A stretch of 64,000 nt of DNA from Peribacillus frigoritolerans. GTDB lineage: Bacteria > Bacillota > Bacilli > Bacillales > DSM-1321. Positions within the stretch are counted from its first letter, which is position 1, and each line of letters opens with the position of its first letter. The notes under the pieces were generated by a model. The model was given only the letters and a program-made list of their open reading frames with translations, had not been told where the DNA came from and did no database searches. Location: assembly GCF_040250305.1 (NCBI RefSeq), contig NZ_CP158190.1:838001-902000 (forward strand). The letters run 5' to 3'. Position numbers and translations under genes: made by a program. This document shows positions 52 to 62,496 of this stretch, one piece after another.

Positions 52-137
52 ATGAATTAACAGATGCTTTACTTCATTATCAGGAGCTGATCAGCAGCTC
101 CTTTTCTTATGCAGCTAACAGCTAAAGGGCCAGGACA
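52..137 (+). repeat. THR repeat, full copy
   Basis: Full copy of the dispersed three-hairpin repeat. The middle stem is GGAGCTG/CAGCTCC followed by TTTTCTTATG. It shares this version of the stem with the copy at 16988-17094. Confidence 0.8.
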
Positions 138-180
138 AACAATTAATATGCGAGGTTTTATTCAAGAAGGGTATTTTTTG

Positions 181-218
181 TTGAAAAATAATACTTTTAG
201 TGTAAAATTACACTAAAA
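181..218 (+). promoter_or_regulatory. Promoter with palindromic operator for the XRE gene
   Basis: TTGAAA (181-186) and TAAAAT (203-208) are 16 bases apart and fit a sigma-A promoter. A perfect inverted repeat, TTTTAGTGTAA-aa-TTACACTAAAA (195-218), covers the -10 element. The Shine-Dalgarno AAGGAG follows at 218-223. I infer autorepression by the regulator encoded just downstream. Confidence 0.7.
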
Positions 219-235
219 AGGAGTATTTAGTATAT

Positions 236-730
236 ATGGAAAAAGAAGAATTCATCAATTTAATATCAGAAAAAATGAAACTTGTCCGAACAGAACAAAG
301 CTTTTCTCAAGATAAGATGTCTGAAATTCTAGGGATTTCAAAAAAAACACTAGTTCAAATTGAAAAAAGAAGAACAGAAGCCAATTGGACCACCGTTGTT
401 GCCTTTTGTGCTTTGTTTAATCATAGCCAATTGTTGATATCTTCAATTGGTGACAATCCTGTTGATTTTGTTCAGTTAATTGCTAGCAAAAATGGTGGGA
501 CGCCTAAAGAAAAAACAATGGGTGGTAAGATATGGTGGAAAGAAATCGAGTATAGAGGGGATTTTCGTTTGCAACAAAATTTGATTAGTAACCATTACCG
601 TATATTGGATCAATATGATTATCGTTGGCATAGTTCTTTTGATAAAGAAGAGAGTTTAAGTCGTTTAAATGAATTACAGGATGTGGGGAATATCGAGATA
701 GACAAAGGTATAGGGATATATGAGGAATAA
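236..730 (+). CDS. XRE-family helix-turn-helix regulator
   Basis: A 164-residue DNA-binding protein. Residues about 10-60 form a Cro/C1-type helix-turn-helix (SQDKMSEILGISKKTLVQIE). The remaining 100 residues match no domain I recognise and may sense a ligand or partner. The start is preceded by AAGGAG and by a palindrome over the promoter. The stop overlaps the next gene by 11 bases, so the two are almost certainly translated together, a common regulator plus membrane-protein arrangement. Target genes are unknown. Autoregulation is inferred from the operator. Confidence 0.85.
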   Translation: MEKEEFINLISEKMKLVRTEQSFSQDKMSEILGISKKTLVQIEKRRTEANWTTVVAFCALFNHSQLLISSIGDNPVDFVQLIASKNGGTPKEKTMGGKIWWKEIEYRGDFRLQQNLISNHYRILDQYDYRWHSSFDKEESLSRLNELQDVGNIEIDKGIGIYEE

Positions 731-1112
731 GATTTTGCTTGTTCTAAGAAAAATAGTAATTGGTATTCTAATAGTCTGTTTATACTGTTTTCCTTTTGTT
801 TATTTTTCAATGCACCAAGATTTTGCTAACCGTTCAATGCTTGGCTATTTAATTATGCTTGTAGTGACTTCACTTCTTGCTTTCTTCGGCAAACTCTTTA
901 ATAATTCAATCTCTCTTATTATTGGTAATATATTATCTGTAATAATTTCATTTTATTTTATAAGCGAGATGACAGGGAACGAACGATGGGGTGGCTATTT
1001 TAAGCCATTAACTCCATATCAATTATTAATCTTGGTGAGTTTTTTGAATTTGATTCCTCAGTTCTTCGCTATGAAGTTAGCAAATAGAACCAAAAATAAA
1101 GTTAAAGATTAA
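720..1112 (+). CDS. Small membrane protein coupled to XRE regulator
   Basis: A 130-residue hydrophobic protein with about four predicted membrane segments (near residues 8-28, 42-58, 64-84 and 100-118) and a basic C-terminus. I recognise no catalytic motif. It starts inside the 3' end of the XRE gene, so it lies in the same operon and may work with that regulator, for instance by controlling it from the membrane. That role is inference from context only. Confidence 0.75.
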   Translation: MRNKILLVLRKIVIGILIVCLYCFPFVYFSMHQDFANRSMLGYLIMLVVTSLLAFFGKLFNNSISLIIGNILSVIISFYFISEMTGNERWGGYFKPLTPYQLLILVSFLNLIPQFFAMKLANRTKNKVKD

Positions 1113-1151
1113 TTTGATTAAGAAGAGTAACTTCTTTGAATTAAAAATTAG

Positions 1152-1185
1152 TTCTTTTCTTCTGGAGCTAACAAGGCAGTTTAGG
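1152..1185 (+). repeat. THR repeat, degenerate right part
   Basis: The segment TTCTTTTCTTCTGGAGCTAA followed by CAAGGCAGTTTAGG resembles the U-tract and right hairpin of THR. The left and middle modules are not recognisable. Confidence 0.5.
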
Positions 1186-1260
1186 TGTTTTTAATTATCC
1201 CAATATATAACTGTCTGAATTTTATATCAAATTAATGCTTTGTTGAATTAAACCTGAAAA

Positions 1261-1293
1261 GCTACTCCTAAAGGTTGGTATCTCTGGAGTAGC
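1261..1293 (-). terminator. Terminator of the GntR/MFS operon
   Basis: GCTACTCC (1261-1268) pairs with GGAGTAGC (1286-1293). On the minus strand the stem is followed by TTTTC. It lies just past the stop of the hydrolase gene. Confidence 0.65.
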
Positions 1294-1300
1294 TCCTACT

Positions 1301-2089
1301 TTATAACTTTCTATACTTTTCTGGTACTCTGGAATCGAATATGGGAACATCTTTTCTTATTTGGGGTACTTTTTCTAAATCTAAAGTTGCCTTTAATTCA
1401 CCAACTTCTTGATCTAATTTTTGAACAATGTCTCCCCATGGATCTACAATTTGTGAGCAACCTGCGAATTCCACTCCTAACTTTGTTCCCGTTACATTTG
1501 ATGCAACAACATACATTTGGTTCTCAATTGCGCGCGCACGAAGTAACGTATTCCAATGTGTCTCCCTTGCGAGTGGCCATTCTGCTACGATATGTAGCAC
1601 TTGAATACCTTGTAATGCTAAGTCACGAATAATTTCAGGGAATCGTAAATCGTAACAAATAATAATCCCCATTTTCACACCTTCAAGTTCAAATACTTCC
1701 ACTTGATTATGACCGCCTGTTAAAAACTTGGGTTCATCTAACATCGGAACAAGGTGCATCTTGTCATATGTATGAACAATATCACCTATTCGATTGACAA
1801 TAACTGCACGATTAAAGATATCTTTACCTTCTAGTACGGCAACCGAGCCACCCACCAAGTTTACATTAAACTTCTTAGCCAGTGATTGTAAAAATTCAAT
1901 TGATTGATTACCATCCACTTTGCAGAGTTCTTTCAATTCTTCTAACGCATAACCCGTAGACCACATTTCAGGAAGTACTACAACGTCCAAATCATCACTG
2001 TAGTTAGCTTCTAACCAGCGTTCAATGATTTTCCTATTCTCTTCTGGATTCCCAACTTCTAATTCCATTTGAAATACCAAATAATTCAC
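1301..2089 (-). CDS. Carbon-nitrogen hydrolase (nitrilase superfamily)
   Basis: About 262 residues, normal for Nit2/omega-amidase-type members of the nitrilase superfamily, which hydrolyse amide or nitrile C-N bonds through a Glu-Lys-Cys triad. The triad is visible: E41 (VVLPEMWSTG), K110 (YDKMHLVP) and C145 (IIICYDLRFPE). A GTG at 2098 overlaps the transporter stop as GTGA but abuts the GAGGAG ribosome site. The GTG at 2089 has better spacing and is used here. It is the last gene of a four-gene operon, so it probably processes whatever the transporter imports. The substrate is unknown. Confidence 0.88.
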   Translation of the reverse strand: MNYLVFQMELEVGNPEENRKIIERWLEANYSDDLDVVVLPEMWSTGYALEELKELCKVDGNQSIEFLQSLAKKFNVNLVGGSVAVLEGKDIFNRAVIVNRIGDIVHTYDKMHLVPMLDEPKFLTGGHNQVEVFELEGVKMGIIICYDLRFPEIIRDLALQGIQVLHIVAEWPLARETHWNTLLRARAIENQMYVVASNVTGTKLGVEFAGCSQIVDPWGDIVQKLDQEVGELKATLDLEKVPQIRKDVPIFDSRVPEKYRKL

Positions 2090-2094
2090 ATTAT

Positions 2095-3363
2095 TCACTC
2101 CTCAATATTATTTAGTAACGAAGTATCCGGTTTTACAAACAACCATAATATAGCTGCAATAAACACTGGGATTACAGTTACTCCTAATGTGATATTCCAA
2201 CCAAAATTTTCTGCTAACCATCCACATAATAACGGTGAGACAAATGCTCCTAGATTTCCCCACAAGTTCATCCAACCTGAAACGGACCCTGAAAAGTTTC
2301 TGCCTAAGTCTGTAGCAGAAGCCCAAGAACAAACTACTGTGAATCCTAGTGACCCCAAGCATAATGATAACCATAAAACATTCATATAAGGCGATACTGT
2401 CATAACAGCCAGGTACATTGAAATAATAAATACTATTAAACCTGATATAGCTAACGAAGTTCTAGATATTTGTTTAGAAAAACCTTTACGTACTAAATAA
2501 TCAGAAAGAATACCCCCAGTCATTACCGTTATTAGTATTGCTAACCATGGTAGGCTTGCAGCAAATCCCATTTTACTTAATGAGAATCCTCTATCTTCTA
2601 GTAGATAAGTAGGTAACCAAACTAAAAAGAAAGTAATAATATATAAAACAACAAAATACTGCATTCCTAACGCCCAAAATCTATAGCTTTTTAGAAAAGT
2701 ATTCCATGGTGCTCTAACTTTAGCGGTTTCGACAAGTTCTCTGTCTTCAAGTATATATTCTTTTTCTTGTTCATTTACTAACTTGTGAATTTCAGGATAG
2801 TCTCTAGCTACAATGTACCATACACCTGCAATGATTATTCCAATTAATCCAAAAATATAAAATACAGCTTGCCAGCCAAAATATTGATATATATAAACTG
2901 TAACGATAGGGGCTATAACTGGTCCAAAATATGAACCTGCCAATAGAGCACTAGATGCTCTAGCCTTTTCATCTCTTCTAAACCAGTTTGTATTAAATAC
3001 GGCGTTAGCTGGGAACATTGGTCCTTCACCGATCCCAAAGAAGAATCTCACCATATACAATAGACCGTGAGATTTAACTACACCCGTCAAACCCGTAAAT
3101 ACTGACCACCATACTAGAGCAAAAGTGATCATTTTTCTTGGGCCAAACTTTTCTGCCATAAGTCCTGCTGGAATTTGAACTAACGCGTAACCTAATGAGA
3201 ATAATGATGCAAGCATACCAAACTGAACTTTATCTAAGCCTAAATCATCCATCATTGGTTTTGCTATTATTGAAATATTTGACCTATCCATGTAAGCGAT
3301 TACACCGATGATAAAGAAGAAGAATGCTAGTCCCCATCTAACTTTTGTCGGTTTCTTTTTCAA
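2095..3363 (-). CDS. MFS transporter, anion:cation symporter family
   Basis: A 422-residue, twelve-helix major facilitator protein. The N-terminus (YMDRSNISIIAKPMMDDLGL) and the FGPRKMI loop are typical of the ACS family, which imports organic acid anions such as glucarate, galactonate or phthalate. The start is TTG behind AAGGGGGG. It lies 12 bases after the DUF2848 gene and touches the hydrolase gene, so all are one transcript. Family membership suggests uptake of a carboxylate. Which one cannot be read from sequence. Confidence 0.88.
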   Translation of the reverse strand: MKKKPTKVRWGLAFFFFIIGVIAYMDRSNISIIAKPMMDDLGLDKVQFGMLASLFSLGYALVQIPAGLMAEKFGPRKMITFALVWWSVFTGLTGVVKSHGLLYMVRFFFGIGEGPMFPANAVFNTNWFRRDEKARASSALLAGSYFGPVIAPIVTVYIYQYFGWQAVFYIFGLIGIIIAGVWYIVARDYPEIHKLVNEQEKEYILEDRELVETAKVRAPWNTFLKSYRFWALGMQYFVVLYIITFFLVWLPTYLLEDRGFSLSKMGFAASLPWLAILITVMTGGILSDYLVRKGFSKQISRTSLAISGLIVFIISMYLAVMTVSPYMNVLWLSLCLGSLGFTVVCSWASATDLGRNFSGSVSGWMNLWGNLGAFVSPLLCGWLAENFGWNITLGVTVIPVFIAAILWLFVKPDTSLLNNIEE

Positions 3364-3375
3364 AACAATCCCCCC

Positions 3376-4047
3376 TTAATAAACAATGGAATAATGATGT
3401 TTAATTTTTCTGTTTAATTTGGGGTGTTCAATTTCGTATTCAAATTTATCACCAAAAACAAATCCATTTTTTGTAGGCACGGTACCTGAAAAAATAACAG
3501 TATGTTCTAAATCTTTTTCCCCGAATTTGTCCAGCTTTTCCAATAAAACATCAACCTCTAAAAGAGCTTCTAGTGTGTCTTCTTGATATAAACTTTTTTC
3601 TCCATTTGAAGTAACATAAGAACGTAAAATAATATTATCCCAGTCTTCCTTTAAATCTGCTAATCTCCAAAAGTCAGTTGCAAGAGGTTTATCACATATT
3701 GATTTAGACTTTAAAATATCTTCTTTTTCTACTTCTCGATCTGTATGATCGCTTCCAAGGGTAACCAACCATTCTTTTCCGTCATGGAATAACACATATT
3801 CTGTTTCCCCAGAGGAGAATTTGCTTCCATGACATTCATTAGAAAAATTCAGTTGTTCTATTTTTTGTGGATAAATCATCGGTACATTAGGTGGAGGTGC
3901 AATTCCTAATTCTTTTAATTCATCTATGTGTTCTTGGATCTTTTCTATATTTCTTCCACCATACCCAACAACAATTACTTTATTAATATCAATTTCATGT
4001 TTTTTAACCTCTCCATTAGAAAGATGTAAATTAATTTCTTTTCTCAT
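3376..4047 (-). CDS. DUF2848 family protein
   Basis: A 223-residue protein matching DUF2848 by its N-terminal VGYGGRN and by the HIDELKELGIAPPPNVPMIY segment. The fold is thought to be distantly related to fumarylacetoacetate hydrolases, and the function is unproven. The ATG has GAGGAGG upstream and lies inside the end of the GntR gene (17-base overlap). With an ACS-type importer and a nitrilase-type hydrolase downstream, I infer a lyase or hydrolase step in catabolism of a carboxylated amide or nitrile. Confidence 0.8.
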   Translation of the reverse strand: MRKEINLHLSNGEVKKHEIDINKVIVVGYGGRNIEKIQEHIDELKELGIAPPPNVPMIYPQKIEQLNFSNECHGSKFSSGETEYVLFHDGKEWLVTLGSDHTDREVEKEDILKSKSICDKPLATDFWRLADLKEDWDNIILRSYVTSNGEKSLYQEDTLEALLEVDVLLEKLDKFGEKDLEHTVIFSGTVPTKNGFVFGDKFEYEIEHPKLNRKIKHHYSIVY

Positions 4048-4699
4048 TTGAATTCCTCCTCAATTGATTAACAATTTCATTTTTTGTATTTTCGACATGG
4101 TTATTTGATGCTATCAGAAGTTGATTTATATCTTGTGATTTTAAAGCTTGTACAATTTCTTTATGTTCAGATATTGTTTCCTCAATACGCGACTTTTCAG
4201 TTATTGCTTTTAACCCAAACCATCTAATCTGATCGCCAATTTCCTCAAACCATTTTTCTAATCGCTGGTTTTTAGTTAATAATACAATTTCAGAATGAAA
4301 CTCCTTATCTAATTCAATAAATCTTTGGTGATCTGTTTTATTTTTTTCTTGCTCCTCAATGAAACCTTCCAAAACTTTTATTTGTTCTTCCGTAATATTT
4401 CCACATATTTTCTCTAGTGAGAATCGGTCAAAAATCATTCGTATTTCCATGACTTCAATTACATTTTCTTCTGTAATTTCATTAATAAACGTACCAACTC
4501 GTGGCTTTGAAATTATCCACTTTTCTCTTTCTAATAACGATAGGGATTCTCTTACAGGAGTTCTACTTACACCTAATTTTTCACTGAGGTCTCTTTCATA
4601 TATTGCTTGACCAGGTAGAAGTTCATAATTCAAAATTGATTTCTTAATTGCCTCAAAAGCTATATCTCTTAACGGCATAACTGTCTCTATTTTTTTCAT
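4031..4699 (-). CDS. GntR-family regulator, FCD (FadR-like) subfamily
   Basis: A 222-residue regulator. A winged helix at about residues 5-70 (AIYERDLSEKLGVSRTPVRE) is followed by an all-helical FCD ligand-binding domain (LDKEFHSEIV; later H residues of the metal site, SEHKEIVQAL). An upstream GTG at 4738 has no ribosome site. The ATG at 4699 has GAGGAGG and is preferred. It heads the operon, and a palindrome TGGTATACCA lies just upstream, so autoregulation and control of the downstream catabolic genes are likely. Confidence 0.88.
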   Translation of the reverse strand: MKKIETVMPLRDIAFEAIKKSILNYELLPGQAIYERDLSEKLGVSRTPVRESLSLLEREKWIISKPRVGTFINEITEENVIEVMEIRMIFDRFSLEKICGNITEEQIKVLEGFIEEQEKNKTDHQRFIELDKEFHSEIVLLTKNQRLEKWFEEIGDQIRWFGLKAITEKSRIEETISEHKEIVQALKSQDINQLLIASNNHVENTKNEIVNQLRRNSNEKRN

Positions 4700-4718
4700 T
4701 TTTCCTCCTCTTGGTATG

Positions 4719-4757
4719 TGGTATACCAACTGTATCACATGCCGAAAATTCAGTCAA
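4719..4757 (-). promoter_or_regulatory. Promoter and GntR operator
   Basis: On the minus strand TTGACT (4757-4752) and TACAGT (4734-4729) are 17 bases apart. The perfect palindrome TGGTATACCA (4719-4728) follows directly, with a second half-site TGGTAT at 4712-4717. This fits an FCD-GntR operator. Confidence 0.65.
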
Positions 4758-4783
4758 TTCAAATAATATGTTTTATTCGGTAG

Positions 4784-4826
4784 CCCTTTTCTTAATGAAC
4801 TAAAGGGGCAGGATAGTTGCATAAGG
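4784..4826 (+). repeat. THR repeat, short right-hairpin form
   Basis: CTTAATGAACTAAAGGGGCA with the complementary GATAGTTGCATAAG. Only the right hairpin and its outer arms are present, with no middle terminator stem. Confidence 0.7.
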
Positions 4827-4872
4827 AATGGAGAATATAAGCTATAAAAATTATGAATGCGGGTGATGTTTA

Positions 4873-5346
4873 TTGAAATTTCCTAAAGGAGTAACTGGTT
4901 TTTATAATGTAAAACATAATAAGCCACCAACAATTGATAGGAAACAATTTAAACAGCAATGTTTTAGTATCATTAAAAGGAATAACGGAAAAGTGTTGGC
5001 ATTCATCGAACCACAGTTTCCAACTAATTTTTTAAATGTCGAAGTTAAAGTTTTTAATAAACATTTGCATATATTGCTTAATGAACATTATCCTTTTTTA
5101 GCTTTTGCTTCTTTTGTTGATTTTGAAAATATTAAATTTATTGATGAACCCGAATTATTGAAACAGTTTAGTCCTTTTTATAGGGTTTTGAGTATGGAGG
5201 AACTTAACAAACCATTATACATTAAAGAGAGTACTGGAAAGATTATTTTAGAAAATGATAATGAATTGAACAGTGCTGAATTGGAACAAATAGCGTATTG
5301 GAAGCCAAAAAGTTCTGGAGAGGTAATCTTTAACTTTTGGGATTAG
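4873..5346 (+). CDS. Conserved hypothetical protein
   Basis: A 157-residue soluble protein that I do not recognise. It has no signal peptide, membrane segment or obvious catalytic motif. The C-terminus is acidic and ends in NFWD. The start is TTG, seven bases after GGGTGA. An ATG slightly upstream is in another frame. It stands alone between two THR repeats and is probably monocistronic. Small acidic proteins like this are sometimes immunity proteins, but nothing here proves it. Confidence 0.6.
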   Translation: MKFPKGVTGFYNVKHNKPPTIDRKQFKQQCFSIIKRNNGKVLAFIEPQFPTNFLNVEVKVFNKHLHILLNEHYPFLAFASFVDFENIKFIDEPELLKQFSPFYRVLSMEELNKPLYIKESTGKIILENDNELNSAELEQIAYWKPKSSGEVIFNFWD

Positions 5347-5360
5347 ATCTAATAACGCTA

Positions 5361-5449
5361 TTGAACAAACAGGTACGTTAGCTTAAGAAGAGCTATCTTT
5401 AAGGTAGCTCTTTCTTATGGCACTAAAGGGGCAGAATAGTTCAACAAGG
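5361..5449 (+). repeat. THR repeat, full copy
   Basis: The middle stem is AGAGCTATC/GGTAGCTCT, a paired-change variant of the usual AGCTGTC/GGCAGCT. The right hairpin is CTAAA-ggggcag-AATAG. It probably terminates the preceding gene. Confidence 0.75.
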
Positions 5450-5584
5450 ATTTTTGGTAAAAACATAATAATATTTATATTATTCATAAAAAGAACACTT
5501 CTTAAGTTAGAATATAGAGATACTGTAAATAAAAATACTTTAAATATAAGTAGGTAAACAAATAAGAAAAAATGAGGGGAAATT

Positions 5585-6010
5585 ATGAAAACTTATCCTT
5601 TAACAGAAAATGATTTTAAATTAATTGATGAAGCTAAAAGTAAAATTACTCATCTCTATGAAGATGATAGGCATCATGTAGGAGCAGCGTTAAAAACAAA
5701 GTCAGGAAATATTGTTTCTGCGGTACATATAGAAGCATACATTGGACGGATTACAGTATGTGCTGAAGCTATCGCGATTGGAAATGCAATTTCAAACGGA
5801 GAAAAATACTTTGATACAATTGTTGCCGTTAGACATCCTTATTCCGATGAAAAAAATAGAGAGTTAAGAGTAGTTAGTCCGTGTGGGATGTGTAGGGAAC
5901 TAATCTCCGATTATTCACCAGATTGTTTTGTTGTTTTAGATATAGATGGCGAGTTACAGAAAACTAAAATTGGTGAACTAATTCCACTAAAATATAGTCG
6001 CGAATCATAA
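5585..6010 (+). CDS. bsr: Blasticidin S deaminase (Bsr-like cytidine deaminase)
   Basis: A 141-residue zinc deaminase. The cytidine deaminase motifs are intact: CAEA (Cys ligand and catalytic Glu) and PCGMC (two further Cys ligands). The protein closely follows what I remember of Bsr from Bacillus cereus K55-S1, including LYEDDRHHVGAA, HIEAYIGR, VAVRHPYSDE and LISDYSPDCF, and it is nearly the same length (140 residues there). That enzyme deaminates the cytosine of blasticidin S and inactivates it. Ordinary Cdd proteins lack most of these segments. It has its own GAGGGGAA ribosome site and is followed by a THR repeat. Confidence 0.88.
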   Translation: MKTYPLTENDFKLIDEAKSKITHLYEDDRHHVGAALKTKSGNIVSAVHIEAYIGRITVCAEAIAIGNAISNGEKYFDTIVAVRHPYSDEKNRELRVVSPCGMCRELISDYSPDCFVVLDIDGELQKTKIGELIPLKYSRES

Positions 6011-6018
6011 ATGAAAAA

Positions 6019-6113
6019 CCTTAATGAACTAACGGGTGCTTTAGCTGAAGATCGGAGCTGTCTTTAAGGCAGCTTTTTCTTATGGAACTAACGTGGCAGT
6101 TTAGTTGAATAAG
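6019..6113 (+). repeat. THR repeat, full copy
   Basis: Close to consensus, with outer arms CTTAATGAACTAAC and TTTAGTTGAATAAG. It lies directly after the blasticidin deaminase gene, and its middle hairpin plus TTTTTC is the only evident terminator. Confidence 0.85.
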
Positions 6114-6268
6114 CTTAGTGTATTCACAAAGCGCCATAACAACTGATGGAACCTTGCTAGGATTGGTTTTTTAGGGTGTTTCTATGATTAATCTTTAAAA
6201 TATTTTACAGAGATTATTCCCTTTTCCGTTTAGGTAAATTTTGGTAATATAGGGGTAGGGGTGATATT

Positions 6269-6568
6269 TTGGAAAACCAAAAAGTTAATAAACAAGCAGC
6301 TATACCAATGATATTGACTGTAGTTTTAGTGATTGCTGCACTACTAGTTTTTTATATCGGCAGATTTTTCCCAAACTCGGATTTAAGGATACCCATTTTT
6401 TTATTTTTTATAATTGATATTGGATTTTTAGTAGCTCTGATTTTGGGAATCAAGACAAAGCAATTTGGTATAAGAGTAATCAGTGTTATATCGAATAGCA
6501 TATTTTTTATCGCTTTAACTCTTTTTACTTTGGCCCTAACTTTAGCCTATGGGATTTCGGAACCATAA
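6269..6568 (+). CDS. Small membrane protein
   Basis: A 99-residue hydrophobic protein with three likely membrane helices (about residues 12-30, 40-60 and 70-92) and a short charged N-terminus. The start is TTG behind GGGGTGAT. I recognise no family or motif. It is a single gene between two THR repeats. Confidence 0.6.
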   Translation: MENQKVNKQAAIPMILTVVLVIAALLVFYIGRFFPNSDLRIPIFLFFIIDIGFLVALILGIKTKQFGIRVISVISNSIFFIALTLFTLALTLAYGISEP

Positions 6569-6600
6569 AAGGCATTATGAGAATAGGAGACAATAATAAT

Positions 6601-6697
6601 GAGAAGAAATGTACTTAAACTAACGGGTGCGTTAGCTGAAGATCGGGGCTGTCTTTAAGGCAGCTTTTTCTTATGGAACTAAGGGCGCAGGTTAGTT
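6601..6697 (+). repeat. THR repeat with 5' prefix
   Basis: Full copy. It carries the extra upstream box GAGAAGAAATGTACTTAAAC seen in a subset of copies. Confidence 0.8.
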
Positions 6698-6742
6698 TTA
6701 TATGAAATATCTACTATAGATGAATCAAACAGAAAAAACTAG

Positions 6743-6786
6743 AGGCTGTCGAGGGTTTCTCGACAGCCTGAAGAGCTTTTCAGCTC
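6743..6786 (-). terminator. Double hairpin terminator
   Basis: AGGCTGTCGA (6743-6752) pairs with TCGACAGCCT (6760-6769), next to a small stem GAGCT/AGCTC (6773-6786). Read on the minus strand it ends in AGTTTTTTC, downstream of the small minus-strand gene at 6803. Confidence 0.65.
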
Positions 6787-6802
6787 CTTTTTATTTTTGC
6801 GA

Positions 6803-6988
6803 TTATACTTCTTTTTTTACATATATTCTGTTAATTAATCCGACTATGCTAATAAAAATCATGGCAGCCACATTAGTAACTATATTAAATTGTTCATTAT
6901 CACTAAAAACATTAACAACGCAAACTACGAAAAAAATAACTAATAAGATGTTTTTGTAGTTATTTGCAATAGTTTTGATAGTAAACAT
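6803..6988 (-). CDS. Small membrane peptide
   Basis: A 61-residue protein with two hydrophobic helices (about residues 14-30 and 36-54) and a basic C-terminus, IYVKKEV. The family is unknown. The ATG follows GAAAGG without a normal gap, so the exact start is uncertain. A strong minus-strand terminator just past the stop supports a real gene. The overlapping plus-strand frame lacks a ribosome site. Confidence 0.5.
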   Translation of the reverse strand: MFTIKTIANNYKNILLVIFFVVCVVNVFSDNEQFNIVTNVAAMIFISIVGLINRIYVKKEV

Positions 6989-7120: not shown

Positions 7121-7137
7121 ATATTTGGGGGTGTAAA

Positions 7138-55668: not shown

Positions 55669-55782
55669 CTTGTATTACTTGCTACCCACTTTTAATGGGT
55701 AGCTTTTTTATATGAAAAGTTTCTGACATAAATAAATATCTAATGGAAGACTTTTTGAGTATATAGCAGATTTGAATGGATT

Positions 55783-55875
55783 CACTTAAAAAACGGTGCT
55801 TTAGCTGAAGAGCGGAGCTGTCTTTAAGGCAGCTTTTTCTTATGGAACTAAAGGGGCAGGATAGTTGAAGAAGGT
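55783..55875 (+). repeat. THR repeat, full copy
   Basis: Left CTTAAAAAACGGTGCTTTAG; middle stem GAGCTGTC/GGCAGCT; right hairpin CTAAA-ggggcag-GATAG; end TTGAAGAAGG. Confidence 0.82.
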
Positions 55876-56000
55876 AATTGTCTTTTTCGTCTAGAATATA
55901 TCTTTTGAGAACTGTGAAAAGGTGTAAAAAGCCCTGTTTTGCCAAAAGGGTAATTTATCAATGCAATTGCAGTATCAATCAATATTTTAGGAGGGTTCAA

Positions 56001-56234
56001 ATGGATAAAAGAGTTCAATTTGACTTTGAAATAGAGTTTACTAATGGCGGTGGGCTACAAGGGCAGGAATTCCGCCTTGATATTGATGGAGATGCCATCA
56101 CTGACCAAGAGTTAGCCAAGTATATTGTAGAGGATATGAGGTTACTAATGGTTGGAGAAGTTAAGATATTTAATAAAAAGATAATTAATGAAAAACATAA
56201 ACGAAAACCTGTTGATGAGAACTCTAAAAAGTAA
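56001..56234 (+). CDS. Small conserved hypothetical protein
   Basis: A 77-residue soluble protein (VQFDFEIEFTNGGGLQGQEF, DQELAKYIVEDMRLLMVGEV) with a basic, lysine-rich tail. It seems to belong to a small conserved Bacilli family without a known role. ATG at 56001 follows TAGGAGGG. An upstream frame from 55878 lacks a ribosome site and overlaps repeat sequence. A THR half follows. Confidence 0.65.
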   Translation: MDKRVQFDFEIEFTNGGGLQGQEFRLDIDGDAITDQELAKYIVEDMRLLMVGEVKIFNKKIINEKHKRKPVDENSKK

Positions 56235-56235
56235 T

Positions 56236-56273
56236 CGACTTCAGCTAACAAGTGCGTTAGCTGAGGATTGGAG
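56236..56273 (+). repeat. THR repeat, left hairpin only
   Basis: CAGCTAACAAGTGCGTTAGC then TGAGGATTGGAGC. It breaks off where the middle stem should start. Confidence 0.65.
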
Positions 56274-56308
56274 CAAACAATATTTAAATGATTAAGGGAG
56301 GAAGAATT

Positions 56309-56878
56309 ATGTCCATTAACGTAAGATCAAGAAGAATGATTTTAGATTTGGCAGTTACTTTAGATGGTTTTATAGAAGGGAAAAATGGGGAAGTTGATTG
56401 GTGCATCATGGACCCTGAGATGGGGTTTATTAATTTCTTAAATCAAATTGATACCATTTTATATGGAAGAAAAAGCTACGATTTATGGGGACAATACACT
56501 CCAGGAATTGAAGATGCCGATACAGAAAAAGAACTTTGGAAAATAGTTCATAGTAAAGAAAAATACGTGTTTTCCAGAACGCAAAAAGGGACTGATAATA
56601 AAGCAATATTTATAAATGATAATATTGTTGAAGAAGTAAATAAATTAAAGAATAAGCCTGGTAAAGACATCTGGCTATATGGCGGAGCAAGTCTTATTAC
56701 AACATTTATCAATTTAGGGCTTGTTGATGAATTTAGATTATCTGTTCATCCTGTTATTTTGGGAGAAGGAAAACCTTTGTTTATTGATATTAAAAAGAGG
56801 TTGAATTTAAAATTGGTTAATACAAAAACGTTCTCCTCTGGTGTTGTGCAACTAATTTATCATTTGAATGAAAATTAA
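56309..56878 (+). CDS. Dihydrofolate reductase/RibD-like protein (YyaP-type)
   Basis: About 189 residues of the RibD C-terminal fold, related to DHFR. Features: LAVTLDGFIEGKNGEVDW, TILYGRKSYDLWGQY, VFSRTQKG and IWLYGGASLITTFINLGLVD, the last being the NADPH-binding GGxxL pattern. Such stand-alone proteins reduce unknown substrates. ATG at 56309 follows GGGAGGAAG. An in-frame ATG at 56288 is poorly placed. Confidence 0.85.
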   Translation: MSINVRSRRMILDLAVTLDGFIEGKNGEVDWCIMDPEMGFINFLNQIDTILYGRKSYDLWGQYTPGIEDADTEKELWKIVHSKEKYVFSRTQKGTDNKAIFINDNIVEEVNKLKNKPGKDIWLYGGASLITTFINLGLVDEFRLSVHPVILGEGKPLFIDIKKRLNLKLVNTKTFSSGVVQLIYHLNEN

Positions 56879-56952
56879 TAATATTGTACATTCCAAGGAT
56901 AAAATACAATAAATATCATTAAGAAATAATTGATAGTTATTGTTGTAAATTC

Positions 56953-57125
56953 TTCAACAATCGGGTGCTTTAATGGTGCAAGCGATATTAGACATTCTAG
57001 ATGATGAGAGGGAAAAATGGTTTTAGTATGCTATACAATTGCACCAACCAGAACAAAAATGGCTTAAGCAGGAGCTGTACAACAGCTCCTTTTTTTTATG
57101 CAACAAACGAGGCAGTTGAACAAAT
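56953..57125 (+). repeat. THR repeat, split halves around other sequence
   Basis: Left arm TTCAACAATCGGGTGCTTTA at 56953, about 90 other bases, then middle stem GGAGCTGTACAACAGCTCC with TTTTTTTTATG and right arm CAACAAACGAGGCAGTTGAA at 57070-57122. The bases between hold only short broken frames. Confidence 0.55.
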
Positions 57126-57347
57126 CTTCATATATATTGTTGCTGTGATTATTGAAAACGAAGAATTAAATTTAAAACCATAGAATAAGTATTAGATGTG
57201 AAAAGGGATTTCCTTAGTTATTTTTTTTTTCGTTTTATCTTCAACTTTCTTCCTTTTTATTATTAAGGGAAAAGACGATTTTATCAATCTCATGAACTTC
57301 TTTTAAATTTCTTTCCTGCTTATAATACTACTCTAAGGTGAGTGAAC

Positions 57348-57734
57348 ATGAAAAATAGAATGAAAACAAAAATGATAAAAATACTCAGCGGAAACAGGGA
57401 AACTAGATTAACGGTTCAAGTTGCAGATACTCAAAGAAAAAGAGATAAGGGCTTAATGTTTGTTGGGAATTTACCCGAAAACGAGGGGATGTTATTTGTG
57501 TATCCAGTTAAAATATATGGTGGCTTTTGGATGAAAAACACATTAATTCCTTTATCTATTGCTTTTCTTGATTGGGATGGGGAAATTCTAAAAATACTTC
57601 ATATGGAGCTTTGTAAAGAAGATATATGTCCTACTTATGATCCAGAAATTCCTTATCAATATGCAGTTGAAGTGAACCTTGGATGGTTTGAAAAGAATCA
57701 AATTAAAGAAGGGGATTATGTAAGGTTTTATTGA
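57348..57734 (+). CDS. DUF192 family protein
   Basis: About 128 residues. DUF192 features: VQVADTQRKRDKGLMFVGNL, EGMLFVYP, GGFWMKNTLIPLSIAFLD and YAVEVNLGWFEKNQIKEGD. No signal peptide is seen, although many members are secreted. The function is unknown. ATG at 57348 follows AAGGTGAG. A GTG two codons earlier is also possible. A terminator follows. Confidence 0.88.
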   Translation: MKNRMKTKMIKILSGNRETRLTVQVADTQRKRDKGLMFVGNLPENEGMLFVYPVKIYGGFWMKNTLIPLSIAFLDWDGEILKILHMELCKEDICPTYDPEIPYQYAVEVNLGWFEKNQIKEGDYVRFY

Positions 57735-57740
57735 ATTGAT

Positions 57741-57772
57741 CTCACCTCTAGTTTTTCTGGTGAGGTGATTTT
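57741..57772 (+). terminator. Terminator after DUF192 gene
   Basis: CTCACC pairs with GGTGAG around a 13-base loop and is followed by GTGATTTTTTAG. Confidence 0.75.
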
Positions 57773-57790
57773 TTAGTTCATATTACTAAA

Positions 57791-57893
57791 AAAATTGTGA
57801 AGAAATGTACTAAAACTTACGGGTGCGTTAGGTGAAGATCGGAGCTGTCTTAAAGGCAGCTCTTTCTTATGCAACTATCGGGGCAGTTTACAG
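57791..57893 (+). repeat. THR repeat with 5' prefix
   Basis: Prefix AATTGTGAAGAAATGTACTA; left CTTACGGGTGCGTTAG; middle stem GAGCTGTC/GGCAGCTC; right hairpin CTATC-ggggcag-TTTA. Confidence 0.83.
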
Positions 57894-58030
57894 GAGTGCT
57901 GTTAAGTAACATGAGGGGGAATTTACTTTATATGGTATTGTATATGCAAGGACTTATTCAGCTAAAGAGCAGTTATTCCGAACGTTTAGCTGAAACGATT
58001 GAATTGTGCTTTCTTAAAGGGGGGATTAGC

Positions 58031-58810
58031 ATAAATCACTCACGGACAAATATGTTTCTCTTATTTTTGGCAATCTTATTTTTCGCAGGTATTATTCTTT
58101 TTTCATTTAGGATGTTTGTTTGGGGATTATTGCCACTCATATTCTTGCTTATTCTCTACATTTCAACTAATAAATACCGTTCATCAGTTTCCTTGTTTAT
58201 TTTCTTCTTATTAGGTACATTGGTGTATCAACTCGGAAGCATCTATATCAATGAATGGAACATATCCAAAGAAATGAAAATCATAATAAACAGATGTTTA
58301 CTTATATTTATTATGATTGGAACAGTGATTTCACTAATGTTGTCTAAGCAGAAGATATTTTCCTATGCACGATTACCAGATTGGCACAGGCGTATCAAAA
58401 TGCCGTTTCATACAATTAAATTACCGTATTTTTTACTTATTGGGCTAATGGTATCAAGCACAATACTTATACCATTATTTAGTCAAGAAATGAGCGATTT
58501 AAAAACAGTATTACTTTTCGGTATATTGTTTGCCATCATAAACGCTACACTTGAAGAAGTAATTTGGAGAGGTATTATGTTATCTAGTTTAAAAAGAAAT
58601 GTTTCCACCTTTTATGCTGTCGTAATAACCAGTATCGGATTCGGGCTACTGCATATATCAATTGGAATTCCTGTAATAATAAGCTTACTTTTTTCTTTTG
58701 GGGGGCTTTTTTATGCAATCGTAGTTTTAAAGACCGATAGTATATATCCATCCATAGTTTTTCATATTGTTATCAACTTGGGTATGGTTTTCAATGGATG
58801 GATAATTTGA
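58031..58810 (+). CDS. CPBP-family intramembrane protease
   Basis: About 259 residues, eight hydrophobic helices. CPBP (Abi) motifs: TLEEVIWRGIML (EExxxR), GFGLLHISIG and SIVFHIVINLG, giving the Glu and His residues of the presumed active site. Such proteases include CAAX-processing-like and bacteriocin self-immunity proteins. AAAGGGGGG lies six bases before ATA 58031. The first ATG is at 58052. A longer frame from 57869 would include THR sequence and is unlikely. The start is thus uncertain. Confidence 0.8.
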   Translation: MNHSRTNMFLLFLAILFFAGIILFSFRMFVWGLLPLIFLLILYISTNKYRSSVSLFIFFLLGTLVYQLGSIYINEWNISKEMKIIINRCLLIFIMIGTVISLMLSKQKIFSYARLPDWHRRIKMPFHTIKLPYFLLIGLMVSSTILIPLFSQEMSDLKTVLLFGILFAIINATLEEVIWRGIMLSSLKRNVSTFYAVVITSIGFGLLHISIGIPVIISLLFSFGGLFYAIVVLKTDSIYPSIVFHIVINLGMVFNGWII

Positions 58811-58827
58811 TCTTATTCCATACAGGG

Positions 58828-58917
58828 TTTCTTAATGAACGAACGGGTGCTTTAGCTGAAAAATCGGAGCTGTCTTTAAGGCAGCTTTTTCTTTTTGCAA
58901 CTTCGGGGCAGATTAAG
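58828..58917 (+). repeat. THR repeat, full copy
   Basis: CTTAATGAACGAACGGGTGC; middle stem GAGCTGTC/GGCAGCT; right arm decayed to CTTCGGGGCAGATTAAG. Confidence 0.82.
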
Positions 58918-59040
58918 ATACATCCATCTGTTTAATTGAGTGCCAGCTCATGTTATAATGAATAACTTACGATAATTACTGTTTCTGAACGGATGCCAGA
59001 AAAGCCTCCGCATAGCGATAAAATATGGAGGTGTAAGAGA

Positions 59041-59250
59041 ATGAATAAACAATGGACGATTGGTAAAATTAAAGAATTTGTTGAGAACAATTCGGAAAGT
59101 AAGTTGCTGACGACGGAATATCACGGTTTTTCTCAAAAGTTACTATTTAAATGTACATGTGGCAGCAACTTTGAAAAAACATTCAAGAAATTTAAAAATA
59201 ATAACCAACGTAAATGTGATGTGTGCCAACCGCCTAAAGCGGCACGATAA
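59041..59250 (+). CDS. Small zinc-finger protein
   Basis: A 69-residue protein. WTIGKIKEFVENN is a DNA-binding-like helix region. The second half holds CTCGSNFEKTFKKFKNNNQ followed by CDVC, a treble-clef-like zinc site seen in phage and homing-endonuclease-linked proteins. GGAGGTG precedes ATG 59041. Function unknown; the basic charge fits nucleic acid binding. Confidence 0.65.
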   Translation: MNKQWTIGKIKEFVENNSESKLLTTEYHGFSQKLLFKCTCGSNFEKTFKKFKNNNQRKCDVCQPPKAAR

Positions 59251-59365
59251 CGTATAGTGAATAAACTGAAGTGCTAATTTCTATTAAAGAGAAGTTGGCA
59301 CTATTTTTATTTTGGGAAATAAAAGTGGATTTCACTAAAAGGGGAAATTAGAAGAATATTCCTTC

Positions 59366-59448
59366 TGGAACTAACGGGTGCTTTAACTGAAGATTGGAGC
59401 TGAAGCTTTTTTCTTCATGCAACTAATTGCCCGGGAAAGTTGAGTAGC
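59366..59448 (+). repeat. THR repeat, decayed copy
   Basis: GAACTAACGGGTGCTTTAAC, then a shortened middle (GGAGCTGAAGCTTTTTTC) and a right arm reduced to CAACTAATTGCCCGGGAAAG. Confidence 0.65.
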
Positions 59449-59531
59449 AGGTTACAATAAAAGACGGTCTGTGGAAAGCTTTCCTAATAATAATTTTAAA
59501 GAAGCGGGATCAGCTAATAGTGAGGTGCTGA

Positions 59532-60139
59532 ATGAGTAGTTCGAAAAAGAGAAAAAAACAATCCGAAAAAATATTAAAGACCCTAAAGGTACCAATAAAT
59601 AAACATTTACCCTTAACGGAAAATGAAGAAGAAGCTTCCCTTAGAACAAAGGAAGAGATTATAGATAGAATTATTTCATTAGCGATAGTCTCAGCGAAAG
59701 CCATGGAGGCTCCGCCAGAAAAATATTCACAGAAGAAGAACAAAAGTTTTTAAAGAAAAAACATCCTAATCACAATGAGCTGATCCAATACTCGTGGAAG
59801 TTAGAATGCATTTGGCTTCTGCTTTGGTCTGTAAATCTAATAGCCGATTTAGATGTTCCAGTCGATACTTGCAATGCTGAATATGTTTTTGAGACGGTTT
59901 TTTCTCTTCATTCTAAACAAGAGTTGCTTGATGAATCCACTTTAAAACCAACTAGTGATATATTAGATAGTCTTGATTTTATTTATAGGGCACATTGGGC
60001 GGTACGAGAAGCCCAAATAAATCATTTGGAAGTTCCATCATCTCTAGATGAAGGCGTTGTATATGAAAGGCACTACACCCTTAATTGGCTAGTAAATTAT
60101 ATGGATCAAGAATGGGAGGAAATAAGTACAGATACATAA
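59532..60139 (+). pseudogene. DUF4272 family gene, frameshifted
   Basis: The first frame (59532-59753) encodes KHLPLTENEEEASLRTKEEI and IISLAIVSAKAMEAPPEK. At GAAAAATATTC (about 59718-59728) one A seems lost. With six A the reading continues IFTEEEQKFLKKKHPNHNEL and LECIWLLLWSVNLI, joining the frame that ends at 60139 (DFIYRAHWAVREAQI). The joined 202-residue protein is a typical DUF4272 member, function unknown. As read it is broken. AGTGAGGTG precedes the start. Confidence 0.75.
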
Positions 60140-60202
60140 AAGCTGCAATACATACTTTTATGCTCCTATCTCAGGGTTAAATGTGAAGTTACCTACTTGA
60201 TC

Positions 60203-60268
60203 TAACAGGCAGGAAGGTTGCTGGGGCAGCCTTTTTCTTATGGCACTAACAAGACAGGTTAGCTGAAA
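60203..60268 (+). repeat. THR repeat, middle and right modules
   Basis: CTAACAGGCAGGAAGGTTGC, middle stem AGGTTGCTGGGGCAGCC with TTTTTC, right hairpin CTAACAAGACAGGTTAG. Confidence 0.65.
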
Positions 60269-60391
60269 AGGGACGAATTACCAGTACAAAAGTTTTGATA
60301 TTTTGAGATAATCAATAAGCACCAAGTCTTTGATTGTAATAGAATGGATTTGTGTAGAAAATATTATACAAGTTTGGGTGGTAAACATTTC

Positions 60392-60481
60392 ATGGGGAAT
60401 GTATTACTGGGACTACCAATCTGAATATTTATTGCAGCCTATATAAGGCAATACACAGATAAAATTATAAAAAAATTGTAG
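60392..60481 (+). pseudogene. Tiny membrane peptide with in-frame TGA
   Basis: After GGGTGG, ATG 60392 opens MGNVLLGLPI, then TGA, then IFIAAYIRQYTDKIIKKL and a stop. With Trp in place of TGA this would be a 29-residue single-helix peptide. It may be a broken small gene. The remainder of 60269-60509 holds no other frame. Confidence 0.3.
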
Positions 60482-60509
60482 GTTCCATAAAATACATAGT
60501 TAAATAATT

Positions 60510-60575
60510 TCTTATTGAACTAAAGGTCGGTTTAGTTGAAGATGGAGTCGTGACGAGAGCTCTTTTTTCCCGTAA
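60510..60575 (+). repeat. THR repeat, decayed copy
   Basis: CTTATTGAACTAAAGGTCGG then TTTAGTTGAAGATGGAG, then a short stem GTCGTGACGAGAGC with TCTTTTTTCC. Confidence 0.55.
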
Positions 60576-60657: not shown

Positions 60658-61455
60658 ATGCATGTGCTACAAAAAACACAAAAAATAGTTCGCTATCAGA
60701 ATCAACAGGGCAAAATACATTACGGTATTGTTGAGGATGACATGATATTACAACTGTCTAGCAGTTTTGCTGAACTTGTCAACAAGGAAATAAAGTATGA
60801 CGGGGTCGAGCTGAAATATAGTGACGTGAAAATCTTGGAACCTGTAAAACCTTCGAAAGTGGTTAATTTCGGCTGGACATATGCAGGTCATGCGAAGGAA
60901 ACGGGTGGAGAGGCAAACCTTGTTGAACCATTCCTATTTTTAAAGCCATTATCTTCGCTTATTGCAGACAAGGAGAATATTATCCTTCCTCCAAACGAGC
61001 TATCCAATCAAGTGGAACTTGAAGGGGAAGTGGCCCTTGTCATTGGAAAGCGCGGAAAAAACATTAAAGAAGAAGACGCGCTGGATTATGTATTTGGGTG
61101 CACGATATTTAATGACGTCACAGCAAGAGATCTTACAAAAAAAGATCCACAGTTTACGCGGGGCAAAGGATTTGATACATTCGGACCTTTGGGACCGTGC
61201 ATCGTTACCGGGGTAGATCCTACAAATTTAAGGATTGTGACCACTTTAAACGGCCGTGTTGTCCAAGACGGAAATACCAATGAAATGTCTCTAAGCATTC
61301 CGTTTCTAATCAGCTGGCTTTCACAGGTAATGACACTTGAGCCCGGTGACATTTTGGCCACGGGTTCACCATCTGGCAGCTGCACGATCAAGTCGGGGGA
61401 TGAAGTCGTTGTTGAAGTCGAGAATATCGGTCGGTTATGTAATGGTGTCCAGTAA
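60658..61455 (+). CDS. Fumarylacetoacetate hydrolase family protein
   Basis: A 265-residue FAH-fold enzyme. Metal ligands are in VELEGEVALVIGKRGKNI (two Glu) and FNDVTARDL (Asp). GKGFDTFGPLGPCIVT and DILATGSPSG are further marks of the HpcE/YisK-type group, which decarboxylates, isomerises or hydrolyses beta-diketo or oxo acids. Base composition is somewhat more GC-rich than neighbouring genes. AAAGGAG precedes the ATG. It stands alone. The substrate is unknown. Confidence 0.9.
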   Translation: MHVLQKTQKIVRYQNQQGKIHYGIVEDDMILQLSSSFAELVNKEIKYDGVELKYSDVKILEPVKPSKVVNFGWTYAGHAKETGGEANLVEPFLFLKPLSSLIADKENIILPPNELSNQVELEGEVALVIGKRGKNIKEEDALDYVFGCTIFNDVTARDLTKKDPQFTRGKGFDTFGPLGPCIVTGVDPTNLRIVTTLNGRVVQDGNTNEMSLSIPFLISWLSQVMTLEPGDILATGSPSGSCTIKSGDEVVVEVENIGRLCNGVQ

Positions 61456-61482
61456 GATTTGCTGGAATTCTTAATACGTTAA

Positions 61483-61516
61483 AAAAGATCAGAGCTGCCT
61501 TTAAGGCAGCTTTTAG
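61483..61516 (+). repeat. THR repeat, middle stem only
   Basis: AAGATCAGAGCTGCCTTTAA, GGCAGCT and TTTAG: the perfect stem AGCTGCC/GGCAGCT, acting as terminator of the FAH gene. Confidence 0.7.
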
Positions 61517-61548
61517 TTTGTACACAAAATGGTTTCTATCTGAATTTT

Positions 61549-61640
61549 AAAACAAAGTTGATTGGATCGAAAGGTGCGAGACTCCTGCGGGAAAAGCGTG
61601 TCCAGGGGAGACCCCGCAGGCGCAATGACAAGCCGTAGAA
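61549..61640 (+). repeat. Palindromic Bacillaceae-type repeat
   Basis: AAAACAAAGTTGATTGGATC, then GCGAGACTCCTGCGGG, and about 25 bases later CCCCGCAGGCGC. CTGCGGGG-like arms pair. I recall this GC-rich element from many Bacillus intergenic regions. It is not THR. Confidence 0.65.
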
Positions 61641-61679
61641 AATATAGAGAAACTCGATGAATACCGAATTTGTCTACAG

Positions 61680-61715
61680 TCTGTAAGCAGTCTTTAAGAC
61701 AGCTTTTTCTTTATG
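61680..61715 (+). repeat. THR-like middle stem
   Basis: GTAAGCAGTCTTTAAGACAG, CTTTTTCTTTATGC: stem variant AGTCTTTAAGACAGC with T-tract. No left or right hairpin. From 61716 to 61859 a short frame (HKYGVPVNGRLVNVVIIHKH) may be a fragment of a lost gene. Confidence 0.5.
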
Positions 61716-61859
61716 CTAATTAAGGATATAATGGAAGATAATTTGTTGAGTCACAGCTGCATAAGTACGGAGTGCCAGTCAATGGCCGTCTTGTCAATGT
61801 AGTAATCATACATAAGCATGGCATCTATGAAAATATTTTTTGCTAACATGGCTTGATAT

Positions 61860-62441
61860 ATGTCTATAAAATTTAATAATGATTGGAATTTAATGATGTT
61901 TACAATAAGTACATATCTAGTTGAAATCAGTGAAGGTGAAGAGAGCTATATATCCTTGGATGACTCTTTAAGATTAAGAGAAGTTTTTGATCATCATAAA
62001 TTTACTCCGGAGCATATTCAAATGCATATAATGATTCAGTTTAATAATCAAATTGTTATTGGAAATGATATTCCTAGTGGGTTAAATTTATGGGATGATT
62101 ATATAGTTGGAATAGAGAAATTTTTAAACGGTGAGAACGTTGAAATACCTTATGGGATCGATCCATATCTTATGAAGTTGATCTCCATAAACAGCAATTC
62201 ATTGGAACTTTCTATAGTGGGAGATTGGGAACCTGTTAAGGTGTTTGCACAAGATATATTACCAAAAAGAGAATTATTTACAGCCATTTTAGATGGAGCA
62301 GAACACTTTTGGAATACATTGATTGATTATAAAGTGTTTGAGGAAAAAGATATAAAGGACACAGCATCTAGAGAATATCCGAAACTAATGATTAAAGAAA
62401 TTGAAAAATTGAGTGCGAAGGTAAAAACTTTGTTTAAATAA
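61860..62441 (+). CDS. Hypothetical protein
   Basis: A 193-residue soluble acidic protein (VEISEGEESYISLDDSLRLR; DGAEHFWNTLIDYKVFEEKD). No domain is recognised. The ribosome site before ATG 61860 is weak (GGCTTGATAT), so the true start may differ. A broken frame just upstream could be the end of a toxin-like gene, for which this would be an immunity protein, but that is speculation. Confidence 0.55.
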   Translation: MSIKFNNDWNLMMFTISTYLVEISEGEESYISLDDSLRLREVFDHHKFTPEHIQMHIMIQFNNQIVIGNDIPSGLNLWDDYIVGIEKFLNGENVEIPYGIDPYLMKLISINSNSLELSIVGDWEPVKVFAQDILPKRELFTAILDGAEHFWNTLIDYKVFEEKDIKDTASREYPKLMIKEIEKLSAKVKTLFK

Positions 62442-62443
62442 AA

Positions 62444-62496
62444 AGAGCTAAACTTGAGGCAGCCTTTTAAGGAACTAACAGGGAAAGTTCGTTTCA
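62444..62496 (+). repeat. THR repeat, decayed copy
   Basis: GAGCTAAACTTGAGGCAGCC, then GGAACTAACAGGGAAAGTTC. The arms are recognisable, the middle stem shortened. Confidence 0.5.

Follow-up and report, generated by a model that had tools for sequence, protein, structure and literature searches.

Among the described systems that gather genes into cassettes, integrons and clusters of attC sites lacking integron-integrases (CALIN) come closest to the locus discussed here. Both form long one-way arrays of mostly single-gene cassettes of unrelated function with a short site at each join, and such arrays occur both with and without a recombinase gene. The orientation of integron arrays is tied to replication. 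Integrons exchange a single strand and leave completion to replication, as described in an excerpt of PMC3053210. According to a part of PMC9024848, integrons are very rare in Firmicutes, with one complete integron (Limnochorda pilosa) and a few CALIN among complete genomes. Here, we analyze a 64,000-nucleotide stretch of the Peribacillus frigoritolerans chromosome (NZ_CP158190.1, bases 838001-902000 of 5.6 Mb; hereafter the window), in which a repeat of three hairpins occurs, whole or in part, at about 50 places. Our comparisons indicate that the repeats are the joints of movable one-gene cassettes, which form long one-way arrays in soil Bacillus relatives. A dedicated recombinase, itself travelling as a cassette, probably shuffles these cassettes, and the whole system would be a counterpart of integrons.

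The repeat and the switch point between cassettes

A preliminary description of the window had reported more than 50 copies of the three-hairpin repeat, all in one orientation. An iterated nhmmer profile gives 55 plus-strand matches at E<=1 between 55 and 62495, a few of which overlap one another, leaving about 50 places. The number of places and the orientation stand, but only 30 of the 55 matches are near full length (at least 69 of 84 model positions); the remainder are single sites or fragments. The profile also has 41 minus-strand matches, which coincide with plus-strand ones because the hairpins are near-palindromic. The single orientation also emerges from a site caller with an arm-spacer-arm score, which at its strict threshold finds 57 forward and 0 reverse sites in the window. 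At the lax threshold it finds 64 forward and 4 reverse sites, three of the latter coinciding with forward sites, against a mean of 0.25 forward sites in 20 mononucleotide shuffles. Nineteen adjacent site pairs are spaced 40-75 bp.

A complete repeat consists of H1 (CTTAATGAACTAAC-GGGTGC-GTTAGCTGAAGATC), H2 (AGCTGTC-TTTAA-GGCAGCT, then T's) and H3 (CTTATGGAACTAAC-GGGGCAG-GTTAGTTCAATAAG). H1 and H3 are each a short site, AACTAAC^GGGTGC-GTTAG and AACTAAC^GGGGCAG-GTTAG, where the caret marks the switch point described below. The additional spacers GGGCCA and GGGCGC occur in the window at 16350..16372 (caller) and 16884..16922 (profile and caller), respectively. A simple pattern of GGGTGC, a gap of 10-40 and GGGGCAG has zero matches because the true gap is longer.

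Arrays were compared in eight Peribacillus genomes and then in nine others of the order. Their 34 array stretches hold 942 sites in the forward and 11 in the reverse orientation; seven of the 11 lie in the mixed-orientation stretch G000b, and stretches of other genera have no reverse site. Across these mosaic arrays the same cassettes recur with different neighbors, switching at one point, AACTAAC^GGG, which bears out the earlier suggestion that the units are mobile. We took junction pairs that share one neighbor but not the other and profiled their identity against unrelated junctions. The downstream cassette alone is shared by 84 pairs (52 families) and the upstream cassette alone by 76 pairs (53 families). 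The spacer type (GGGTGC or GGGGCAG) differs in 0 of the 84 downstream-shared pairs and in 16 of the 76 upstream-shared pairs (12 families). In H1, the identity of the last base of AACTAAC is 1.00 when the upstream cassette is shared (29 pairs), 0.70 in unrelated junctions and 0.84 when the downstream cassette is shared. For the base after AACTAAC it is 0.88 when the downstream cassette is shared (32 pairs), and 0.66 both in unrelated junctions and when the upstream one is shared. The last AACTAAC base is tied to the upstream cassette and the next base to the downstream one; therefore the switch lies at AACTAAC^GGG. For H3, the profile alone limits the switch to the interval from the last AACTAAC base to the second right-arm base, and the spacer-type test moves it left of the spacer's last bases.

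The right ends of cassettes break at both H1 and H3, which means that the terminator module lying between the two is exchanged by itself. One cassette end, ..CATGGATGGCTAACGGG, has four different continuations within the window's genome alone. Inside the window, junction comparison shows that the 3' end of the cassette upstream of the single H1-type site at 20716..20742 (profile, caller) meets other cassettes at three more places in the genome, and the cassette upstream of the complete element at 23736..23818 (profile, caller) ends in an H3-type junction in genome G006. By this comparison, the repeat is a chain of recombination sites and not an inserted element, its middle hairpin being a terminator that is itself exchanged.

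The complete element at 21308..21389 (profile, caller) folds better than 200 of 200 shuffles, with z -3.8 as RNA and -4.6 as DNA. Between 5001 and 25000 there are 28 terminator-like sites compared with 10.3 in shuffles, and 13 of the 28 are middle hairpins of repeats. The RNAalifold structure of the repeat was poor, and a three-hairpin structure given by hand was adopted. Its covariation is weak, being reached by 39-47 of 500 shuffles on four measures and by 235 of 500 on a fifth. The arms of H3 scarcely covary, with two stem positions unpaired in 9 of 21 and 12 of 20 copies, as expected when the left arm comes from one unit and the right arm from the next. A long attC-like hairpin pairing the H1 left arm with the H3 right arm was rejected, since its paired cells reach 75.3% compared with 81.9% for the three hairpins. 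An Rfam microRNA match at 26062-26139 of the window is under the gathering score and was taken as chance.

The cassettes behave mostly as carriers of single, unrelated genes. Among 393 cassettes of 250-2500 bp in the first set, the longest open reading frame (ORF) has the direction of the array in 297 and the opposite direction in 52, and 44 have no ORF of 70 amino acids. Pfam matches of 71 cassette proteins from the window's genome spread over 60 families; the first 25 of these include GNAT, IS110 transposase, APH, hydrolases and many singletons. Resistance- or detoxification-type family names are few among the 71 (APH 2, glyoxalase 2, MepB-like 1). With this diversity and one duplicated cassette in the window, local tandem duplication does not explain the copies, an explanation that the preliminary description had set against its own reading. 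A ribosome-binding site plus start is in excess at cassette starts (270 vs 122 in 529 cassettes). Promoters show no excess either there (35 vs 44 shuffled at 10 of 12, in a 150-base stretch of the same 529 cassettes) or in the window stretch (78 vs 77.1).

By these comparisons, a cassette comprises GGG, three or four more spacer bases, the right arm (GTTAGTT..), usually one gene, and then the left arm (..AACTAAC). The meeting of two cassettes creates either of the two junctions given above, and the three-hairpin repeat is two such junctions around a terminator module of ~60 bp that is exchanged as a tiny cassette. Inverted arms of 13-14 bp around a 6-7-bp spacer are the core-site layout of tyrosine recombinases, and AACTAAC^GGG falls at one of the two expected cleavage positions of such a site. 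A normal two-strand exchange would leave mismatches in the spacer, which replication would sort both ways; the spacer is found with the downstream cassette only. Because the spacer goes with the cassette that follows it, and spacers unlike in sequence and length interchange, we infer that a single strand is exchanged and that replication may complete the event, as in integrons. It is the single switch point that suggests recombination of a folded single-stranded site. All spacers seen have GGG, and this may be the part that has to match in the exchanged strand. The recombinase would join cassettes head to tail, so that the sites of an array all point one way, as an asymmetric site dictates.

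A tyrosine recombinase family among the sites

The window's genome has 14 PF00589 matches, none of them at the main array. When the fetched arrays were scanned with a profile built from local tyrosine recombinases, one family turned up, within arrays of two bacterial families. Its intact member, P0004, is a 282-amino-acid Xer-like protein from a genome recorded as Oceanobacillus chungangensis, with 934 relatives at E<=1e-60. We analyzed 79 loci from named genomes; these are the best of 134 matches, the discovery locus among them. A site lies within 10 kb of the gene in 70 of the 79 and at least two sites in 63; the 1.34 Mb around these loci hold 398 sites, a few palindromic ones counted on both strands, compared with 1 in shuffled sequence. 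With the strict H3 pattern, this 1.34 Mb has 65 occurrences and 384 whole genomes from outside the genus have 305, a density at least 150-fold higher near the loci even if every genome is given 2.5 Mb, the smallest size listed. When the distance is limited to 1.5 kb, 56 of the 79 loci have a site; among 86 loci of other tyrosine recombinases, a set with many mutual orthologues, the number is 1.

In Peribacillus, 18 of 20 loci of the family have sites, which frame the gene at about -150 and +880 in L331-L333, L335 and L338. Pairwise comparison of seven copies from different loci shows a shared stretch from -139..-189 to +876..+917 in 20 of the 21 pairs; in one pair it starts at -79. The left edge of the shared stretch is the GGGTGC of one junction and the right edge is the AACTAAC of the next. 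By this comparison, the P0004-family gene itself moves as a cassette. It stands first in L329 and L330, whose fetched stretches hold no upstream site, and is framed by sites at other loci. Six array stretches were inspected at their 5' ends, and none has a tyrosine recombinase there. At L204-L270 and L279, 361 of 377 sites are on the strand opposite the gene, and at L271-L274, L278 and L282 all 21 sites are on its strand.

The family has the PF00589 match, the catalytic residues and, in a model of moderate confidence, the fold of tyrosine recombinases. P0004 is closest to XerD and XerA in sequence and predicted fold. R138, K162, H228, H254 and Y263 are invariant and R231 is found in 25 of 26 aligned family members; we take these six to be the catalytic residues. 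An enzyme of this family (~280 amino acids), encoded on a cassette, most likely cuts at AAC^GGG. From the co-localization and the switch point we consider it quite probable that the cassette arrays were built by this Xer-like family through one-strand exchange at that position.

Several results weigh against this assignment or against the cassette reading as a whole. The junction pairs are not independent of one another. Occupied and empty versions of a junction gave one clear pair among four candidates, at 87-88% identity, and a 376-bp difference between the close genomes G018 and G019 is an ordinary deletion away from sites. Copy A of the duplicated cassette in the window (38049-38990) starts without a recognizable site, which may reflect either insertion at a secondary site or later loss of the site. 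In L336 and L337, the likeness to the other seven recombinase copies begins only at about -80 to -90, and these two resemble each other from -690 on. Sites are also present, four altogether, in three of the eight 12-kb control loci. An intact family member is missing from the window's genome, whose best match (E 5.7e-32) is its own XerC gene, and the window's array may have been built by a copy since lost. Half of the non-genus genomes with at least four sites (12 of 24) have no member at E<=1e-62. Across the order, the family is present in 37 of 112 site-bearing and 43 of 285 other genomes, a modest association whose p of 1.4e-4 ignores phylogeny and depends on a threshold chosen after the list was known. 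Many arrays therefore lack the enzyme, like the integrase-less cassette clusters.

Other recombinases were considered. A 279-amino-acid XerA-like protein (L010:1156-1995, chromosome ~280.6 kb) is conserved in the genus and has no sites nearby. An operon directly beside an array (L020:13437-19430, chromosome 3168437-3174430) encodes three divergent proteins of 414, 833 and 545 amino acids, two with weak tyrosine-recombinase matches, and a 213-amino-acid coiled-coil protein, and resembles a Tn554-type trio. It was rejected as the array enzyme, as relatives of the 545-amino-acid protein occur in 5 of 36 genus genomes and covariance-model matches to the repeat in 35 of 36. A phage-type integrase remnant (L018, chromosome 1885704-1885814) lies on the opposite strand ~110 bp before the first site of an array downstream of mutL. 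It was discarded as a candidate for the intI position because it belongs, by eye, to a different family. L012, L013 and L014 are short tyrosine recombinases of ~190-210 amino acids, and L012 and L014 have counterparts in three other Peribacillus genomes.

Alternative explanations and known systems

It is unlikely that the cassettes exist as described and are moved by host XerC/XerD or by the XerA-like L010 protein instead of the P0004 family. XerC- and XerD-like genes do top the PF00589 lists of genus genomes, and L010 has orthologues of at least 90% identity in 21 Peribacillus genomes, including all 18 with at least 45 model matches. However, these genes have no site beside them, the one locus with a site among the 86 other-recombinase loci being a phage-type remnant, and L010, which was set aside, is unlinked to sites across the order (17/112 vs 42/285 genomes, p 0.88).

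A P0004-family origin has also to be compared with homologous recombination. RecA acting between ~100-bp repeats could shuffle ordinary genes, the repeats being merely terminators. The terminator-like middle hairpins would suit such a role, and the repeats are alike enough to pair. Against this, switching is confined to one base step and not spread over the repeat, single short sites act like complete elements, the spacers are conserved in an unpaired loop, and a recombinase family is tied to the sites. We regard RecA-driven shuffling as quite improbable.

A decayed classic integron with IntI and attC is a very improbable source of the arrays. The system works like an integron, with one-way arrays of cassettes and a recombination site at each join. 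The element resembles attC with its left-hand (LH) and right-hand (RH) simple sites, as these appear in the excerpt of PMC3053210. Yet the IntI profile TIGR02249 finds nothing over its cut-off in 36 of 36 genus genomes, and P0004 itself reaches 98 bits where the cut-off is 265. Among the 942 junctions, GTTRRRY occurs in 6 and RYYYAAC in 2, as counted by a caller whose letters are biased against this consensus and favor T or C at the sixth base; the triplets AAC (543) and GTT (485) are frequent. In addition, the switch is one base off G^TTRRRY and takes place at H1 as well as H3. The arrays share with integrons the features named at the outset, including the tie to replication and, as far as our data suggest it, single-strand exchange, and differ in five respects. 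The recombinase is Xer-like, the core is AACTAAC^GGGNNN(N)-GTTAGTT and not GTTRRRY/RYYYAAC, and the spacer goes with the downstream cassette. Each element has two recombining sites around an exchangeable terminator, and the recombinase gene is itself a cassette, with no fixed platform or attI seen.

Other tyrosine recombinase systems share parts of this design. XerC/XerD-dif and the plasmid pdif modules have arms of ~11-14 bp, a 6-7-bp spacer, Xer-like recombinases and gene-sized modules; the present sites differ in having one orientation, a dedicated recombinase and tolerance of unlike spacers, and they are unrelated to the Bacillus dif sequence as we know it. Integrases of the Tn916/Tn1549 and CTnDOT types are also tyrosine recombinases that tolerate a mismatched spacer, but the units here are single-gene cassettes in tandem arrays.

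The orientation of the arrays follows replication, as the preliminary description had supposed. Of 22 array stretches, 21 have sites whose orientation agrees with GC skew, including one where the skew is near zero. On the whole chromosome, the covariance model has 148 matches at E<=1 in about ten places, the largest at 793-940 kb. By hand count, 95 are plus and 1 minus below 2.65 Mb, and 45 are minus and 7 plus above it, a terminus position guessed from the GC-skew signs of the stretches fetched. Therefore, orientation fits replication for 140 of the 148 matches, and equal numbers of both orientations within one replichore, which would have spoken against the idea, were not seen. Selection on transcription could add to this agreement because most cassette genes run with the array.

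The preliminary description had tentatively linked the same orientation to HUH/Y1 transposases, which move hairpin-ended units as single strands. Repetitive extragenic palindromic (REP) elements with their REP-associated tyrosine transposases (RAYT) and IS200/IS605 elements do combine hairpins with an orientation that follows replication, and one switch point would suit them. Such transposition is nevertheless hardly credible here, as the hairpins straddle the junction of two units and belong to neither, the arms of H3 follow different cassettes, the units lack end hairpins inside them, and the gene family located among the sites is a tyrosine recombinase; with PF01797 not searched, the reading is unsupported and not excluded.

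Layout of the window, distribution and meaning

All features of the window are on the plus strand and, unless stated otherwise, were found by both profile and caller. By profile and covariance model, 55..60568 is part of one cassette array, that of the ~793-940 kb matches. Complete elements (H1-terminator-H3) occupy 5364..5444, 6027..6109, 6618..6698, 8258..8343, 12233..12310, 16244..16327, 17009..17089 (with another terminator type), 17419..17502, 18539..18622, 24624..24699, 30549..30627 and 31048..31122. Further ones lie at 38912..38996, 42415..42496, 43143..43227, 44079..44160, 46257..46339, 47157..47240, 55791..55869, 57814..57890, 58838..58915 and 59369..59443. A tandem pair of elements is at 15495..15637, and an H1-terminator-H3 element at 55..134 was found by profile. 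The element at 7048..7117 has a degenerate H3, that at 54586..54648 is shortened with an H3-type site, and that at 25306..25375 is degenerate (profile). A terminator plus H3 is found at 29921..29978, 45263..45326 and, by profile, 50113..50180.

Single H3-type sites are located at 1151..1186 (profile), 4778..4821, 7781..7816, 29472..29507 and 50845..50888, and H3-type sites at 16438..16460 (caller) and 33472..33519. Single H1-type sites are at 10608..10658, 12977..13004, 31970..32005, 56243..56274 and 56956..56978 (caller), and one more site is at 60508..60568. The profile alone adds an H3 fragment (60222..60267), terminator fragments (61485..61514 and 61685..61723) and other fragments (57067..57117 and 62440..62495). 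Comparison of copies identifies a near-identical stretch of ~0.9 kb present twice, as cassette copy A at 38049..38990 and copy B at 46329..47233. Its right end is within H3 in both copies, and its left end is within H3 in copy B only.

Beyond the window, 112 of 397 genomes sampled from the order, in 52 of 135 genera, contain the H3 core when up to one mismatch is allowed, and a reversed-pattern control has 1 match in total. As noted above, nearly all genus genomes match the covariance model. The repeat is also carried by 21 plasmid records; no match was found in the phage records searched with it. On the 6-kb plasmid pSP10-6k (L200), sites flank an ASCH-domain gene on both sides. This plasmid carries a MobV relaxase and is a possible vehicle of cassettes between genera. 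In another plasmid cassette array (L202, NZ_CP085396.1), two group II intron reverse transcriptases are encoded at 131850-133178 and 140156-141430; group IIC introns favor terminators and attC sites.

We found no description of this system in the PubMed Central open-access literature; subscription papers and preprints lay outside the search. With some reserve, we lean towards an independent cassette-capture system that runs parallel to integrons. An Xer-derived, self-mobile recombinase would exchange one strand at AAC^GGG and accept unlike spacers, and single genes and stand-alone terminators would circulate among chromosomes and plasmids of many genera as an order-wide pool. The repeats would then be the joints of a non-integron cassette system, with a candidate enzyme, in 112 of the 397 genomes of the window's order. 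Such a system offers for study a recombinase with a short site, together with exchangeable terminators. With it, cassette capture would have had more than one origin or have diverged widely, and there would be an explanation for the build-up and turnover, in soil bacilli, of large blocks of unrelated single genes.

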